Of a stretch of 32,922 bases of DNA, positions 7,469 to 13,831 are shown in pieces. How positions within the stretch are numbered: position 1 is the stretch's first letter; every line of letters begins with the position of its first letter. The notes beneath the pieces were generated by a model. That model was not told the DNA's origin. It saw nothing but the letters and a program-made list of their open reading frames with translations, and did not search any database. The stretch is from Chloroflexota bacterium. Its GTDB lineage: Bacteria; Chloroflexota; Limnocylindria; Limnocylindrales; CSP1-4. Where the stretch lies: positions 1-32,922 of the forward strand of contig PMBR01000076.1 of the NCBI GenBank assembly GCA_003152995.1, given 5' to 3'. Position numbers and translations under genes: made by a program.

Positions 7469-8230
7469 CTACGCCGCCGCACGGCTGAAGGAGCGCGCGC
7501 CGAGAGCGATCGTCACGGCCGCCAGAACGACCAAAACCACCACGCCGATCACGATCTCGGAGTCGCCGTAGCTGGCGTTGAAGAGCGCCCGGATCGCGGC
7601 GACGGCGTGATACAGCGGGTTCAGTTTGGCGATCGTCTGCAGCCAGTCCGGCGCGAACGACATCGGCAGCATCACGCCCGACAGGAGCAGGAGAGGCAAA
7701 GCTAGGCCGTTGACCACGGGGGCGAGCGAGTCCTCACTCTTGAGGACGAGGGCCAGGGTGTACGAGACGGGCGACATCATCAGCCCGATCAGCGCCAGCA
7801 TCGCGAATGCGACCGTGACGCCCCCGAGGTTGATCTCGAGCCCGAACGGGATCGCCAGCACGACCAGGATCAAGCCCTGGCCGAGCAGCAGGACGACATC
7901 ACGCAAGGATCGGCCGACGAGCATTGCCAAGCGACTCATCGGCGTGACGGTCATCCGTTCGACGACGCCCTCGCGCATCTCGTCGCACAGGCCAAATCCC
8001 ACGAACGCCGAGCTGAAGAGGGCCGTCATGACGAGGATCCCGGGCACGAAGACGTTGAACGCTCCGCCGGGAGGAAAGCCCGGCATCCTGGCTATGTTCG
8101 TCAGAAGCGGGCCGAACAGGAGCAGATAGAGGATCGGCTGTCCGATGCCCATGATCACCCAGACAGGATTTCGAAGGCTCAGCGTGAGCGAGCGATCGAA
8201 GATGAGCCAGGTATCTCGAATGGTTCGCAT
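7469..8230 (-). CDS. ABC-2 type transporter permease (DrrB-like)
   Basis: Membrane half of a drug-type ABC exporter. The 253-residue protein has six hydrophobic segments, including VWVIMGIGQPILYLLLFG, the FVPGILVMTALFSSAF segment and IVIGVVVLVVLAAVTIALG. A charged amphipathic stretch (CDEMREGVVERMTVTPMSR) follows TM2, as in daunorubicin-resistance permeases. The start is set at ATG 8230 (MRTIRDTW), which has GGGAGA 5-6 nt upstream; the frame is open to 8329, so starts at 8269 or 8329 are possible. The gene follows its ATPase by 43 nt. Substrate unknown. Confidence 0.87.
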   Translation of the reverse strand: MRTIRDTWLIFDRSLTLSLRNPVWVIMGIGQPILYLLLFGPLLTNIARMPGFPPGGAFNVFVPGILVMTALFSSAFVGFGLCDEMREGVVERMTVTPMSRLAMLVGRSLRDVVLLLGQGLILVVLAIPFGLEINLGGVTVAFAMLALIGLMMSPVSYTLALVLKSEDSLAPVVNGLALPLLLLSGVMLPMSFAPDWLQTIAKLNPLYHAVAAIRALFNASYGDSEIVIGVVVLVVLAAVTIALGARSFSRAAA

Positions 8231-8273
8231 TGCTTTCTCCCAGGCCGCCGACTCCCAGGGGAGCGGCATCTTG

Positions 8274-9248
8274 TCAGGCCGCCGACTCGCGGAGTGAGCG
8301 GCCGGTCTTCTTGAGGAATACGTCGTCAAGGCTGGGTCGATGCAGGTTCATGGTCGTGGGCGCCAGACCGTGGCTGTCGAGGATTCGCAGCACGCTCGGC
8401 ACCGCCTCATCACCTTTGTCGACGTACAGCCGCACGAGCCCGTCTTCGAGGCCGGCTTCGCGGACGAACGATTGGGCGGCCATCAGCTCGATGACCCGGT
8501 CGCAGTCGCCATCCACGCCTATCGTCAGGACGTCGCCGGCGATCTCGCGCTTCAGCTGGCTCGGAGAGCCCTCGGCGACGATCCGGCCGTGGTCGATGAT
8601 CGCCAGGCGGTCGCATAGCGCATCTGCTTCTTCGAGGTAATGGGTCGTGAGAAAGACCGAAGTACCGCCGTCTCGCAGTTTTCGGATCTCATCCCACATC
8701 CGGGCCCGCGCCTGCGGATCGAGCCCGGTCGTGGGTTCGTCGAGGAAGAGCACCACTGGGCGATGGACCATGCCGATACCGATGTTGAGCCGGCGCCGCA
8801 TCCCGCCGGAGTAGGTCCCGCAGGTCCGGTCGGCGGCATCGGAGAGGTCGAGCGCGTCGAGGATCTCCTGCGCGCGGCGGCCGGCGTCGGCCTTGCTCAT
8901 ACCGAAGAGGCGGCCCTGGATGACCAGCTCCTCGCGACCCGTCGATTCGCGATACGAGCCGCCGGCCTGAGCCACGTAGCCGATGCGCTTGCGGACCTCC
9001 TCGGGCTTGTGGGCCACGTCGAAGCCGGCCACTCTGGCCGTGCCTGCAGTCGGCGGCAGCAGTGTGGCAAGGATGCGCAGGGTGGTGGTCTTGCCGGCGC
9101 CGTTGGGGCCTAGGAAGCCGAAGATGTCGCCCGCCTCCACGCGCAGGTCCACACCCGCGACGGCTTCTACGGCCCCGCGTTGGTCTCGACCGTGACCCTT
9201 GAAGACCCGGCGCAGGCCCGCCGTCTCGATGATGGCTTCGGGGCTCAT
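8274..9248 (-). CDS. ABC transporter ATP-binding protein (DrrA-like)
   Basis: A 324-residue ATPase driving the adjacent DrrB-like permease. Walker A is GPNGAGKTT (47-55), the Q-loop is VAQAGG, the signature is YSGGMRRRL (145-153), Walker B is VVLFLDE (164-170) with PTTGLDP as D-loop, and the switch His is in TTHYLEEAD. The C-terminal extension after about residue 225, ending near RPSLDDVFLKKTG, is characteristic of the DrrA drug-resistance subfamily. The ATG at 9248 overlaps (ATGA) the stop of a 27-codon ORF. First full-length gene of the exporter-hydrolase-acetyltransferase operon. Confidence 0.92.
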   Translation of the reverse strand: MSPEAIIETAGLRRVFKGHGRDQRGAVEAVAGVDLRVEAGDIFGFLGPNGAGKTTTLRILATLLPPTAGTARVAGFDVAHKPEEVRKRIGYVAQAGGSYRESTGREELVIQGRLFGMSKADAGRRAQEILDALDLSDAADRTCGTYSGGMRRRLNIGIGMVHRPVVLFLDEPTTGLDPQARARMWDEIRKLRDGGTSVFLTTHYLEEADALCDRLAIIDHGRIVAEGSPSQLKREIAGDVLTIGVDGDCDRVIELMAAQSFVREAGLEDGLVRLYVDKGDEAVPSVLRILDSHGLAPTTMNLHRPSLDDVFLKKTGRSLRESAA

Positions 9249-9328
9249 GCCAATCCTCGACGGGCCGCCGCCCGCCGGGCACGCAAGCCAGGGATCACAC
9301 TGTCAAACTGCTCTGCTGTGAGGCCCAT
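9245..9328 (-). CDS. 27-residue ORF coupled to the DrrA-like gene
   Basis: ATG at 9328 is preceded by GAGGAAG (spacing about 5 nt). The frame encodes 27 residues (beginning MGLTAEQF, ending in an Arg/Ala-rich helix) and stops in TGA overlapping the drrA ATG as ATGA. No known family. It may be a translated leader that feeds ribosomes to drrA, a regulatory small protein, or a remnant. The good ribosome-binding site and exact overlap are the only support. Confidence 0.35.
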   Translation of the reverse strand: MGLTAEQFDSVIPGLRARRAAARRGLA

Positions 9329-9549
9329 GGATCTTCCTCTCGAACCTGATCGCACACTGTGGCGCCGGACGGCTATCGAACCCTCGGCTCTCGGGTTGTG
9401 TGAGAGTCAAGTGCCAGATGCGTCCGCGCCGAGGTCGGCCGTGGCCGGATTCGCCTCTCCCGGCCGTACCGTTGGAACTGTGGCTTTCTCCACGTTGCTG
9501 CGCTATGATGTCTCTGCGCAGCGCAGAGAATAGCCAGGACAGAGGAACG
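9329..9549. promoter_or_regulatory. Divergent control region between exporter operon and MarR gene
   Basis: Bases between the two divergent units. The plus strand has a good -10, TATGAT (9504-9509), without a clear -35. The palindrome at 9511-9529 lies at its start site. On the minus strand, TTGACT near 9404-9409 could be a -35 for the exporter operon, but I find no matching -10. A stretch at 9360-9390 resembles a tRNA 3' end on the minus strand and is discussed separately. Confidence 0.45.
9511..9529. promoter_or_regulatory. Perfect 19-bp palindrome, probable MarR operator
   Basis: TCTCTGCGCAGCGCAGAGA is a perfect inverted repeat with a single central base. It lies immediately after the -10 TATGAT, over the predicted transcription start, and 21 nt before the MarR start codon. 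Position and symmetry are what is expected for an autorepressor site of a dimeric winged-helix protein. Which protein binds is inferred. Confidence 0.6.
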
Positions 9550-10680
9550 ATGTCAAGCGGCGTTCCGAGACGGGACTTGATGGCCGCGGTCCTGCGAGCC
9601 GTCCGCAAGGAGAGCAGTCAGGCGGCGCTCTTCAGCGCGGCCGTCGCGGAGCGGCTCGGTCTTGCCGGCACCGACGTTGAATGCCTCGAAGTGCTCCAGG
9701 ACGAGGGCCGCCTCACCGTCGGACGGCTGGCCGAACTAACGGGTCTCACGACGGGTTCGGCGACGAGGATGATCGACCGGCTCGAGCAGGCAGGCTACGT
9801 CCGCCGCGTACCCGATCCCACCGACAGACGACGCGTCCTGGTCGAGGCGATCGCCGGGCTCGAAGTCAAGTTCGGGGCATTGCATGACTCCATCTCTCGC
9901 GCTCAGATGGAAGTCATCGAGGCCTATGACGACGGGCAGTTGCGGCTGCTGGCCGACTTCCTGCGACGCAGCGGTGAGGTCGCGCTCGCCGAGACGGTCA
10001 AGATGCGGGCCCCGAGCGAGGAGGCGGATGCGGGCGGCAGCTACGCGGCGCCCGTGGGTGCAGTGACCAGCGGGAGGCTCGTCTTTCTGTCGGGCGCGCC
10101 ACGTATAACGGTCCGGGGCGATGCCACGCTCACGGAGCTGTACCGGGCCAAGTTCGCCGGTCCGGTGCCGCGAATGCGGACCCGCGCCGGGGTCGTCACG
10201 GTGGCCTATCCCCGCCTCGGCTGGGTCGACTGGCGCGCCCAGATTGGCGGCCAGCACATCGAAGCCTCTGCTCACTGGAACAAAGACACCGGCGAGATCT
10301 CGCTGAACAGTGCCATTCCATGGTCCATCGAGTTGCGCGGCGGCGTCTCGGAGTGGAGCGCGGACCTTCGCACGGTGCGGCTCGCTTCGTTCGATCTCAG
10401 GGGCGGGGCCAGCAAATTCGAACTGCTCCTGCCCAGGCCGACGGGCATCGTCCCGATACGAGTCAGTGGCGGGATGAGCCGTGTCTCGATCGAGCGGCCG
10501 GCAGGCACCGCCATGAGCCTGACCATCAGCGGTGGGGTCAGCAAGCTAGTCGTCGACACTGAGCTCTACAAGGGCGAAGGGCACCTGTCTATCCAGACGC
10601 CCGGCGCGGAGTCGGCAGTCGATCGCTACGAGATCGAGATCGGCGGCGGTGCCAGCAAGATGGCTATCGTGGCGCGCTGA
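9550..10680 (+). CDS. MarR-family regulator fused to a repeat-built beta domain
   Basis: A 376-residue protein. Residues 1-150 form a MarR-type winged helix: LTVGRLAELTGLTTGSATRMIDRLEQAGYVRR is the recognition unit and DPTDRRRVLVE the wing. Residues 175-376 form a beta-rich domain with five repeats around Gly-Gly: LRGGVSEWS (262), LRGGASKFE (283), VSGGMSRVS (305), ISGGVSKLV (326) and IGGGASKMA (364). This resembles the toast-rack/LiaF-C/DUF4097-type solenoids of envelope-stress proteins. It has no membrane segment. ATG 9550 has AGAGGA at 9541-9546. It probably represses its own gene and the divergent exporter operon and forms an operon with the LysE-type gene 3 nt downstream. Confidence 0.85.
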   Translation: MSSGVPRRDLMAAVLRAVRKESSQAALFSAAVAERLGLAGTDVECLEVLQDEGRLTVGRLAELTGLTTGSATRMIDRLEQAGYVRRVPDPTDRRRVLVEAIAGLEVKFGALHDSISRAQMEVIEAYDDGQLRLLADFLRRSGEVALAETVKMRAPSEEADAGGSYAAPVGAVTSGRLVFLSGAPRITVRGDATLTELYRAKFAGPVPRMRTRAGVVTVAYPRLGWVDWRAQIGGQHIEASAHWNKDTGEISLNSAIPWSIELRGGVSEWSADLRTVRLASFDLRGGASKFELLLPRPTGIVPIRVSGGMSRVSIERPAGTAMSLTISGGVSKLVVDTELYKGEGHLSIQTPGAESAVDRYEIEIGGGASKMAIVAR

Positions 10681-10683
10681 TCG

Positions 10684-11313
10684 ATGGAGATGTTCCTGAC
10701 GGGGTTTGCTCTGTCTCTGTCGGCGTGCCTGGATCTTGGGATAGTCAACGTGGCCACGATCAAGCGCGGACTGGACAGCGGCTCCCGAGCGGCCTTCGTG
10801 CTCCAGCTCGGCTCGTGCTGCGGCGACATGGTGTACGCGCTACTGAGCATGTTCGGGCTGGCCCTGGTCCTTTCGGAACCGCATGTGCGGGTGATCTTCT
10901 GGCTGGGCGGCACAGCCGTTCTGCTCTATCTGGCCGCCACGATGCTCCGCGAGACGTGGCGCGGCCGCTCTCTGGCGGTCACCGAAGGATCCGCTCCCGA
11001 GATCCGCCCGCACCGCGATTTCATGCGCGGTCTGGCGCTGGCGCTGTCGTCGCCGTCCCTGATCGTCTGGTTCGCCTCGGCGGGCGGCGCGGTGATCGCG
11101 GGGATCTACAGCCGAACGCAGTCACCGCCGTGGCTTTTCCTGGCCGGATTCTTCTGCTGCGGCCTGGTCTGGGCGGCCTTCCTGTCACTGCTCTCCGGCA
11201 AGGGCCGCCACATGGTCGGGCCACGTGCCCTGCGGACCTTCTCGGCCGCCTCAGCCTTGATCTTCGTCGCGCTGGCGGCCAAGGTATTTCTCGATGGCCT
11301 GGCGGTCGGCTGA
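10684..11313 (+). CDS. LysE/RhtB-family exporter
   Basis: A 209-residue inner-membrane protein with about six hydrophobic segments: FLTGFALSLSACLDLGIVNVA at the N-terminus, DMVYALLSMFGLALVL, VIFWLGGTAVLLYLAATML, then after a loop LALALSSPSLIVWFASAGGAVIAG, WLFLAGFFCCGLVWAAFLSLL and AASALIFVALAAKVFLDGL. This is the LysE amino-acid/metabolite exporter pattern, with G-x-x-x-SPSLI-V/I-W replacing the usual NPK region. It starts 3 nt after the MarR stop, so it is cotranscribed and probably under its control. Substrate unknown. Confidence 0.82.
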   Translation: MEMFLTGFALSLSACLDLGIVNVATIKRGLDSGSRAAFVLQLGSCCGDMVYALLSMFGLALVLSEPHVRVIFWLGGTAVLLYLAATMLRETWRGRSLAVTEGSAPEIRPHRDFMRGLALALSSPSLIVWFASAGGAVIAGIYSRTQSPPWLFLAGFFCCGLVWAAFLSLLSGKGRHMVGPRALRTFSAASALIFVALAAKVFLDGLAVG

Positions 11314-12717: not shown

Positions 12718-12893
12718 CGATGGGCTCCTATGCCGGAGGGGCGCTGCCTCGCGTCCTGGCGTTCGGTGCTGCGCCGACCCTGACCGTATCACTGTTGCGT
12801 TGGACACGAACGAACTGGCCGGCGGCCGTTGCGCGACCCGCACACGGACACACGAGTTTGCAAAACGACTGGTGCTCGCGCCGGGGCGGCGGG

Positions 12894-12899
12894 TATGCT
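12894..12899 (+). promoter_or_regulatory. Possible -10 of the proline-rich protein gene
   Basis: TATGCT matches a TAnnnT -10 hexamer 65 nt upstream of the start at 12965. No clear -35. It sits in the 247-nt divergent region upstream of the oxidoreductase gene. Confidence 0.3.
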
Positions 12900-12964
12900 C
12901 CGCTGAGTCACCACGGATGTTTCTTGGGCCGGATCGTCAGGCTCCGCACACAAGAGAGGATCGG

Positions 12965-13831
12965 ATGGACCCCTCCGGATACGGTCAGAAGCCCCCTACT
13001 CCGCCGCCAGACTGGTCTCAGCCCAGCCAGACGCCACCTCCGCCGCCAGACGGGTCACAGCCCGGCCAGACGCCACCTCCGCCGCCAGACTGGTCACAGC
13101 CGGGCCAAACGCCACCTTCGCCGCCAGACTGGTCTCAGCCCGGCCAAACGCCACCTCCGCCGCCGGACTGGTCTCAGCCGGGCCAAACGCCACCTCCGCC
13201 GCCAGACTGGTCTCAGCCGGGCCAGCCGGGTCCATATGGCCAGCCCGGTCCATATGGCCAGCCGGGCCAGCCCGGTCCTTATGGCCAGCCGGGCCAGCCC
13301 GGTCCATACGGCCAGCCGGGTCCATATGGCCAGCCCGGCTTTGGCCAGCCCGCCGGCATGTGGGCCGCCCCGCCACCTGTCCGGCGCTCGCGCCTGCCGC
13401 GGATAATCGCGGTTGTCGTAGTGCTGGCGCTTCTCGCAGGCGCCGCTCTCTTTGTCCTGGGCAACATGCAGGTCCCGGACGCGGGCAAGGTGGTCTTCTC
13501 GACCGACAAGCCGGTTGCCGGTCAGAGCAGCGGCTGCAAGGTCGACCATCAAGTGACATCGGTTTCGGCGGGTACGTCCGTCTACGCCACCTACATCTTC
13601 TCGGCCAAGCAGGGCTCCGACGTGGTCTCGATCACCGTCACCAAGGACGGCAGCCCGTTCCTGCCCGCAACAGCAATGCAGACGAGCGACACGCAGGGAT
13701 ACAACTGCTTCGCCGACACCTCGGACCTGAGCCAGATCCCCTCCCTGCCCTTCGACGCGGGGTCTTACAAGTTCACTCTGACTTCAGGGAACAACACGAT
13801 CTCCGAGGGAACGCTCACCGTCACCCCGTAA
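12965..13831 (+). CDS. Proline-rich repeat, single-pass membrane protein
   Basis: A 288-residue protein in three parts. Residues 1-128 are cytoplasmic and made of repeats: 13-residue units of the TPPPPPDWSQPGQ type, then PGPYGQ units. A basic patch (PPPVRRSRLPR) precedes one transmembrane helix (IIAVVVVLALLAGAALFVLG, about residues 145-164). The outside part of about 125 residues, beginning VPDAGKVVFSTDKPVAGQSSGCKVDH, is beta-rich with a likely disulfide (GCKV/YNCF). ATG 12965 follows AGAGAGGA. Proline-rich cytoplasmic tails of this kind occur in actinobacterial and Chloroflexota signalling or envelope proteins, often as protein-binding or condensate-forming tails. Function unknown. Confidence 0.8.
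   Translation: MDPSGYGQKPPTPPPDWSQPSQTPPPPPDGSQPGQTPPPPPDWSQPGQTPPSPPDWSQPGQTPPPPPDWSQPGQTPPPPPDWSQPGQPGPYGQPGPYGQPGQPGPYGQPGQPGPYGQPGPYGQPGFGQPAGMWAAPPPVRRSRLPRIIAVVVVLALLAGAALFVLGNMQVPDAGKVVFSTDKPVAGQSSGCKVDHQVTSVSAGTSVYATYIFSAKQGSDVVSITVTKDGSPFLPATAMQTSDTQGYNCFADTSDLSQIPSLPFDAGSYKFTLTSGNNTISEGTLTVTP
13031..13225 (+). repeat. Five tandem 39-bp repeats in the coding sequence
   Basis: Five contiguous copies of a 39-bp unit beginning ACGCCACCTCCGCCGCCAGA (13031, 13070, 13109, 13148, 13187), with single-base differences, encode the 13-residue Pro-rich unit. A degenerate copy precedes them (about 12993-13030). Confidence 0.9.
13226..13349 (+). repeat. Tandem 18-bp-based PGPYGQ repeats
   Basis: A second repeat block built from CCGGGTCCATATGGCCAG-type 18-bp units, some with a 9-bp CCGGGCCAG insert. 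It encodes five PGPYGQ units and ends in PGFGQ. Confidence 0.85.

Follow-up and report, generated by a model that had tools for sequence, protein, structure and literature searches.

Toastrack domains are central to the LiaF and PSP envelope-stress systems, although there is no agreement on what they sense or bind. Proteins of the MarR family, usually about 150 residues long, include efflux repressors in which a winged helix recognises a palindromic operator and the exporter gene is divergent or adjacent. The known Toastrack proteins (the C-terminal domain of LiaF, LiaG, and the DUF2154, DUF4097 and DUF2807 families) usually stand C-terminal to transmembrane, PspC or SHOCT-like domains, with 4QRK given as an example structure (Ravi et al. 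2024, PMC11237479). The direct fusion of a Toastrack to an HTH domain is raised in the same work in general terms, and MarR is not mentioned. A repressor linked to a Toastrack (DUF4097) protein is also found in the PadR/HAAS-Toastrack operons, for example lltR-lmo0600-lmo0601 of Listeria, in which the Toastrack protein is distinct from the DNA-binding one and carries an exoprotein annotation (PMC6624303); the PadR repressors LmrR and LftR are linked to a drug efflux pump.

The regulator described here is encoded in a window of 32,922 nucleotides (the whole stretch of DNA analysed) from a Chloroflexota bacterium. It shares with the MarR efflux repressors the winged helix, a divergent exporter and a palindromic operator, here a predicted one, and like LmrR and LftR it is linked to a drug efflux pump, in this case of the DrrAB-type ABC-2 group: one gene of the pair matches DrrA and the other resembles DrrB. 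In contrast with the MarR efflux repressors, it carries a further domain, about 220 residues long. This domain has the fold of the known Toastrack proteins and a detectable sequence homology to them; unlike the known Toastrack families, it is reached by no Pfam Toastrack model, and it follows a soluble MarR half rather than a membrane-associated domain. Whereas the Listeria operon keeps its DNA-binding and Toastrack proteins apart, here they form one soluble protein. The features of the locus are listed in Table 1.

Table 1. Features of the MarR-Toastrack locus (positions within the window; promoter and operator elements are predictions).
Feature	Position	Strand	Basis
Candidate operator palindrome, 19 bp, TCTCTGCGC-A-GCGCAGAGA	9511..9529		Conserved; single copy in genome
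Likely -10 element of the regulator gene, TATGAT	9504..9509	+	Precedes palindrome; same position in relatives
Likely drrA promoter, TTGACA (9556..9551), 18-nt spacer, TATTCT (9532..9527)	9527..9556	-	Conserved TTGACA-N18-TATTCT
MarR-Toastrack regulator gene, 376 aa	9550..10680	+	Single ORF; MarR Pfam matches; architecture common to 10 congeners
MarR domain with N- and C-terminal dimerisation helices, residues ~1-154	9550..10011	+	Pfam; AF2; MarR chain Z 14.1
Toastrack (beta-helix) domain, residues ~159-376	10024..10677	+	4qrk by profile, Foldseek, VIA-align
DrrA-type ABC ATPase	8274..9248	-	Divergent; NCBIfam TIGR01188 above cut-off; kept beside fusions
DrrB-type ABC-2 permease	7469..8329	-	PF01061; TIGR01247 below cut-off; kept beside fusions
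Leader ORF, 27 aa, upstream of drrA	9245..9328	-	Stop overlaps drrA ATG (ATGA)
LysE-type exporter, just downstream of the regulator	10684..11313	+	PF01810

The regulator ORF opens with ATG and runs for 376 codons. Residues 37-96 match the winged-helix families MarR_2 (PF12802, E 7.5e-15, 55.3 bits against a curated cut-off of 27) and MarR (PF01047, E 1.7e-14, 53.9 bits against 24.6). The C-terminal half carries Gly-Gly-x-Ser (GGxS) motifs at residues 264, 285, 307, 328 and 366; the five in residues 160-376 compare with a shuffled mean of 0.32, and five were reached in 0 of 100,000 shuffles. Across 17 fusions of the class, G264, G265, G285, G286, G328, G329 and G367 are invariant, and G307, G308 and G366 nearly so. 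The regulator has no membrane segment, its best 19-residue hydropathy being 1.04, and it lacks the LiaI-LiaF transmembrane region by which LiaF is recognised: the N-terminus is MarR, with no hydrophobic segment.

Searched singly against Pfam, the C-terminal sequence of the window protein gave no match, LiaF-like_C (PF09922) and Toast_rack_N (PF17115) included. A profile built from eleven congeneric C-terminal domains alone matches PDB 4qrk with E 5.7e-11, and the addition of homologues from the class that are linked to LiaF-TM segments brings this match to E 1e-26. Most of these added homologues carry LiaI-LiaF-like or LiaF-TM segments, and several match Toast_rack_N or LiaF-like_C weakly, one of them (L023) above the PF17115 cut-off. 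An AlphaFold (AF2) monomer model, for which the input was the window protein and ten congeners only, has a mean pLDDT of 74.5, with 80-94 per ten-residue block from residue 251 onward and a low-confidence loop at 222-244. Its top structural match is again 4qrk (Foldseek E 7.8e-12; VIA-align Z 22.5, rmsd 2.5 over 199 residues). MarR chains rank after it at Z of about 12-14, the best being 3e6m (Z 14.1 over 147 residues of the monomer model); the helices of the MarR half run from H7-36 to H128-153, and both they and the wing are intact in the prediction. By profile comparison and in the predicted model, then, the C-terminal domain is a right-handed single-stranded beta-helix of the Toastrack (LiaF_C/DUF2154) type. 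Since it matches 4qrk, and 4QRK is cited as a Toastrack structure by Ravi et al. (PMC11237479), we assign it to the Toastrack superfamily, though it falls below the Pfam thresholds. The first-pass annotation had described a MarR domain with some 200 additional residues bearing five GGxS motifs, free of a membrane anchor and of toast-rack/LiaF type. All five motif positions and the absent anchor were found as described, and profile search, structure prediction, alignment to 4qrk and LiaF-TM homology agree on the fold, which the structure prediction proposed there returns as a solenoid and not as the non-solenoid fold named as its refutation.

The same single-ORF fusion, with its linker conserved, is encoded by ten more species of the genus, with 64-76% identity (59-75% for the Toastrack half), and the Toastrack half keeps strictly invariant residues at 41-51% overall identity. 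Among 177 genomes of the class that were searched, eight further ones carry the fusion (L049, L050, L053, L059, L060, L061, L075 and L103), that in L103 belonging to another family. When 400 genomes sampled from the phylum were searched, MarR fusions again made up many of the top-scoring matches, and elsewhere in the phylum about 20 loci, spread over several families, have it as a single ORF. Every N-terminal part that was scanned matches MarR (27 of 27, of which the phylum sample supplied 19 and the class 8). The relatives found in a single scan of genome contigs are all Chloroflexi, and a plasmid collection gave 12 matches to the MarR part only, with none at 80% coverage; one of these that was checked, from Streptomyces, is annotated as a short stand-alone MarR. 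In a tree of Toastrack domains the MarR-fused, TetR-fused and stand-alone forms cluster with a support of 0.89; as this is modest, and a few TM-labelled sequences fall within the grouping, a single fusion event is not claimed. The close relatives of the host that bear a name are MAGs called 'Chloroflexi bacterium', the majority labelled as fen isolates.

The survey of MarR-solenoid architectures and their neighbours that the annotation had called for finds the fusion recurring across Chloroflexota beside export and detoxification genes. Immediately around the window regulator lie DrrA, DrrB and LysE genes. A divergent DrrA adjoins the fusion in all 17 relatives of the class, the window apart, whose contig covers that side, even where the regulator is only 38% identical, and DrrB stands behind DrrA wherever the contig extends (L028-L037, L126-L129 and L131-L133; in L130 the exporter side is outside the contig). 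TetR-Toastrack fusions occur in two genomes of one family (L020:1315-2589, minus strand; L125:805-2040, plus strand), and both are divergent to a DrrA-type gene (L134, with DrrB, and L135). Two genes for stand-alone soluble Toastracks come immediately after DrrA and DrrB and are read in their direction (L156/L196 and L157/L197). A MalT-like LuxR regulator lies upstream in L197, and in L198 a stand-alone soluble Toastrack stands ahead of a multi-TM gene. In families elsewhere in the phylum, the gene opposite the MarR fusion may be of the DrrA type (for example L192, L200 and L203), an MFS transporter (L188 and L193), a hydrolase of the beta-lactamase family (L190 and L194) or, in L187, an EryCIII-like glycosyltransferase with an MFS gene next in line. 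The neighbours suggest drug export and detoxification more than an envelope-stress operon of the classical kind. In L190 and L201 the MarR-Toastrack gene is followed by a gene for an ABC protein judged UvrA-like from its sequence, Pfam giving only ABC_tran, and is divergent to a serine hydrolase of the Beta-lactamase family (Pfam-tested in L190).

Within the genus there are also exceptions. One congener (G002) has the same drrAB, at 82-85% identity, alongside a plain MarR some 170 residues long, which is not an orthologue and shares 33% identity with the window protein's MarR half. In a second (G018) the regulator is lost and drrA adjoins msrB. In a third (G012) a short DrrB-like remnant (L151:4324-4524) suggests that the exporter was lost. 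Since drrAB exists without a Toastrack in the first two, the exporter is not strictly dependent on the domain, which would refine control rather than be essential to it. In the window, drrB probably starts near 8284. The leader ORF pattern M-x-[FL]-T-x-x-[QK]-F-D is conserved in most loci of the genus, and translational coupling or attenuation of drrA is possible. The LysE gene was rejected as a general regulated partner, being beside the fusion only in the window and L030. Further downstream, an ORF at 12800-13831 (plus strand) encodes long Pro/Gln/Gly-rich repeats (TPPPPPDWSQPGQ, PGPYGQ), followed by a hydrophobic segment and, at the C-terminus, a globular part.

Two divergent predicted promoters have their -10 elements on either side of the candidate operator, which is conserved in 19 loci, in one of them in variant form. 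This palindrome is found at the same place in the genus, as TMTCTGCnCnGnGCAG variants in other loci of the class, and is replaced by TATCTTAGTCACTAAGATA in the most distant of these (L133); in many of the more distant fusions a related palindrome, of the TATCTTnnTnnnnAAGATA type, lies close to a TGTCAA start. A longer form of the palindrome is present in 10 of 11 genomes of the genus with the gene versus none of 10 without it (21 genomes). In the host assembly (3.05 Mb, 73% complete) no second copy occurs at up to 3 mismatches, and a regulon beyond the locus was rejected on this ground. The predicted drrA promoter agrees with the consensus at 10 of 12 bases (shuffled mean 0.0) and is the top-scoring minus-strand promoter in 18 of the 19 loci. 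Its -10 overlaps the palindrome and its -35 lies over the start codon of the regulator, which would account for the invariant GTCAA there. The -35 of the regulator's own promoter is of the TTGC type in most relatives and weak in the window. Because the palindrome lies between both -10 elements, a regulator dimer bound to it should cover both transcription starts.

We consider it probable (about 0.68) that the protein is a one-component local repressor of itself and of the divergent drrAB, with the Toastrack half as its input domain. The MarR half, probably as a dimer, would bind the palindrome between the back-to-back promoters and silence both the regulator gene and the exporter operon. A toxic compound, or membrane stress caused by it, would be the trigger; the Toastrack half would bind the compound or dock to a partner near the membrane, whereupon the regulator would leave the operator and the exporter would be made. 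Local autorepression of drrAB, the first half of this best-supported reading, rests on conserved anatomy: the architecture and predicted fold, the divergent exporter, and the layout of operator and promoters. Repression rather than activation and the dimeric state are inferred. That the Toastrack is the input domain is suggested by its repeated occurrence near export and detoxification genes, whether joined to MarR, joined to TetR or alone, and by the proposal of Ravi et al. (PMC11237479).

According to that proposal, the beta-sheets of Toastracks offer surfaces for protein docking close to the membrane, possibly acting via fused or associated HTH domains. Applied here, the Toastrack would under stress bind the exporter or another membrane-proximal complex and pull the repressor off the DNA, so that the protein would read transporter load or membrane damage and not free ligand. 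The domain accompanies DrrAB fused to MarR, fused to TetR and as a stand-alone protein of the operon, which fits docking; the regulator, however, has no membrane anchor of its own, and several MarR-Toastrack genes face MFS, glycosyltransferase or hydrolase genes with no DrrAB within the stretch read, which makes one fixed docking partner unlikely. On balance we give docking rather less than even odds. MarR regulators adjoining exporters are common in general, so that the neighbourhood alone is weak evidence for a role of the Toastrack; and as the dimer cleft of MarR proteins is itself a common site of ligand sensing, the Toastrack need not be the sensor. The cleft alone might then detect the drug, as in an ordinary MarR, with the Toastrack only stabilising or oligomerising the protein. 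The helices of the usual cleft are predicted to be intact, and the plain MarR of G002 serves the same exporter, but the conservation of the Toastrack half within the genus, its invariant residues among distant fusions and its recurrence with a second HTH family and alone speak against a passive role, and we regard cleft-only sensing as unlikely. An artefact in which a MarR gene was accidentally joined to its neighbour by a frameshift, the refutation anticipated earlier, or by an assembly error would explain the unusual length only and is rejected with near certainty, since the same continuous frame and linker are found in the ten congeners and in many distant genomes from several families of the phylum.

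Toastrack and MarR domains, and HTH-Toastrack coupling in general, are already known, and the idea of such a fusion is not wholly new, having been raised by Ravi et al. (PMC11237479); what seems to be new is the MarR-Toastrack fusion, no description of a MarR fused to DUF4097 or DUF2154 having been found in the open-licence literature. More speculatively, the soluble Toastrack may be a transferable cytosolic sensor of antibiotics or lipophilic toxins, used with MarR, with TetR or alone beside exporters, and its carriers an undescribed, phylum-wide class of resistance regulators, although we hold this to be doubtful. A soluble Toastrack-repressor fusion with a single 19-bp candidate operator offers an easily purified and genetically simple test of what Toastracks do, and the locus points to widespread, uncharacterised regulators of drug efflux and detoxification in Chloroflexota.
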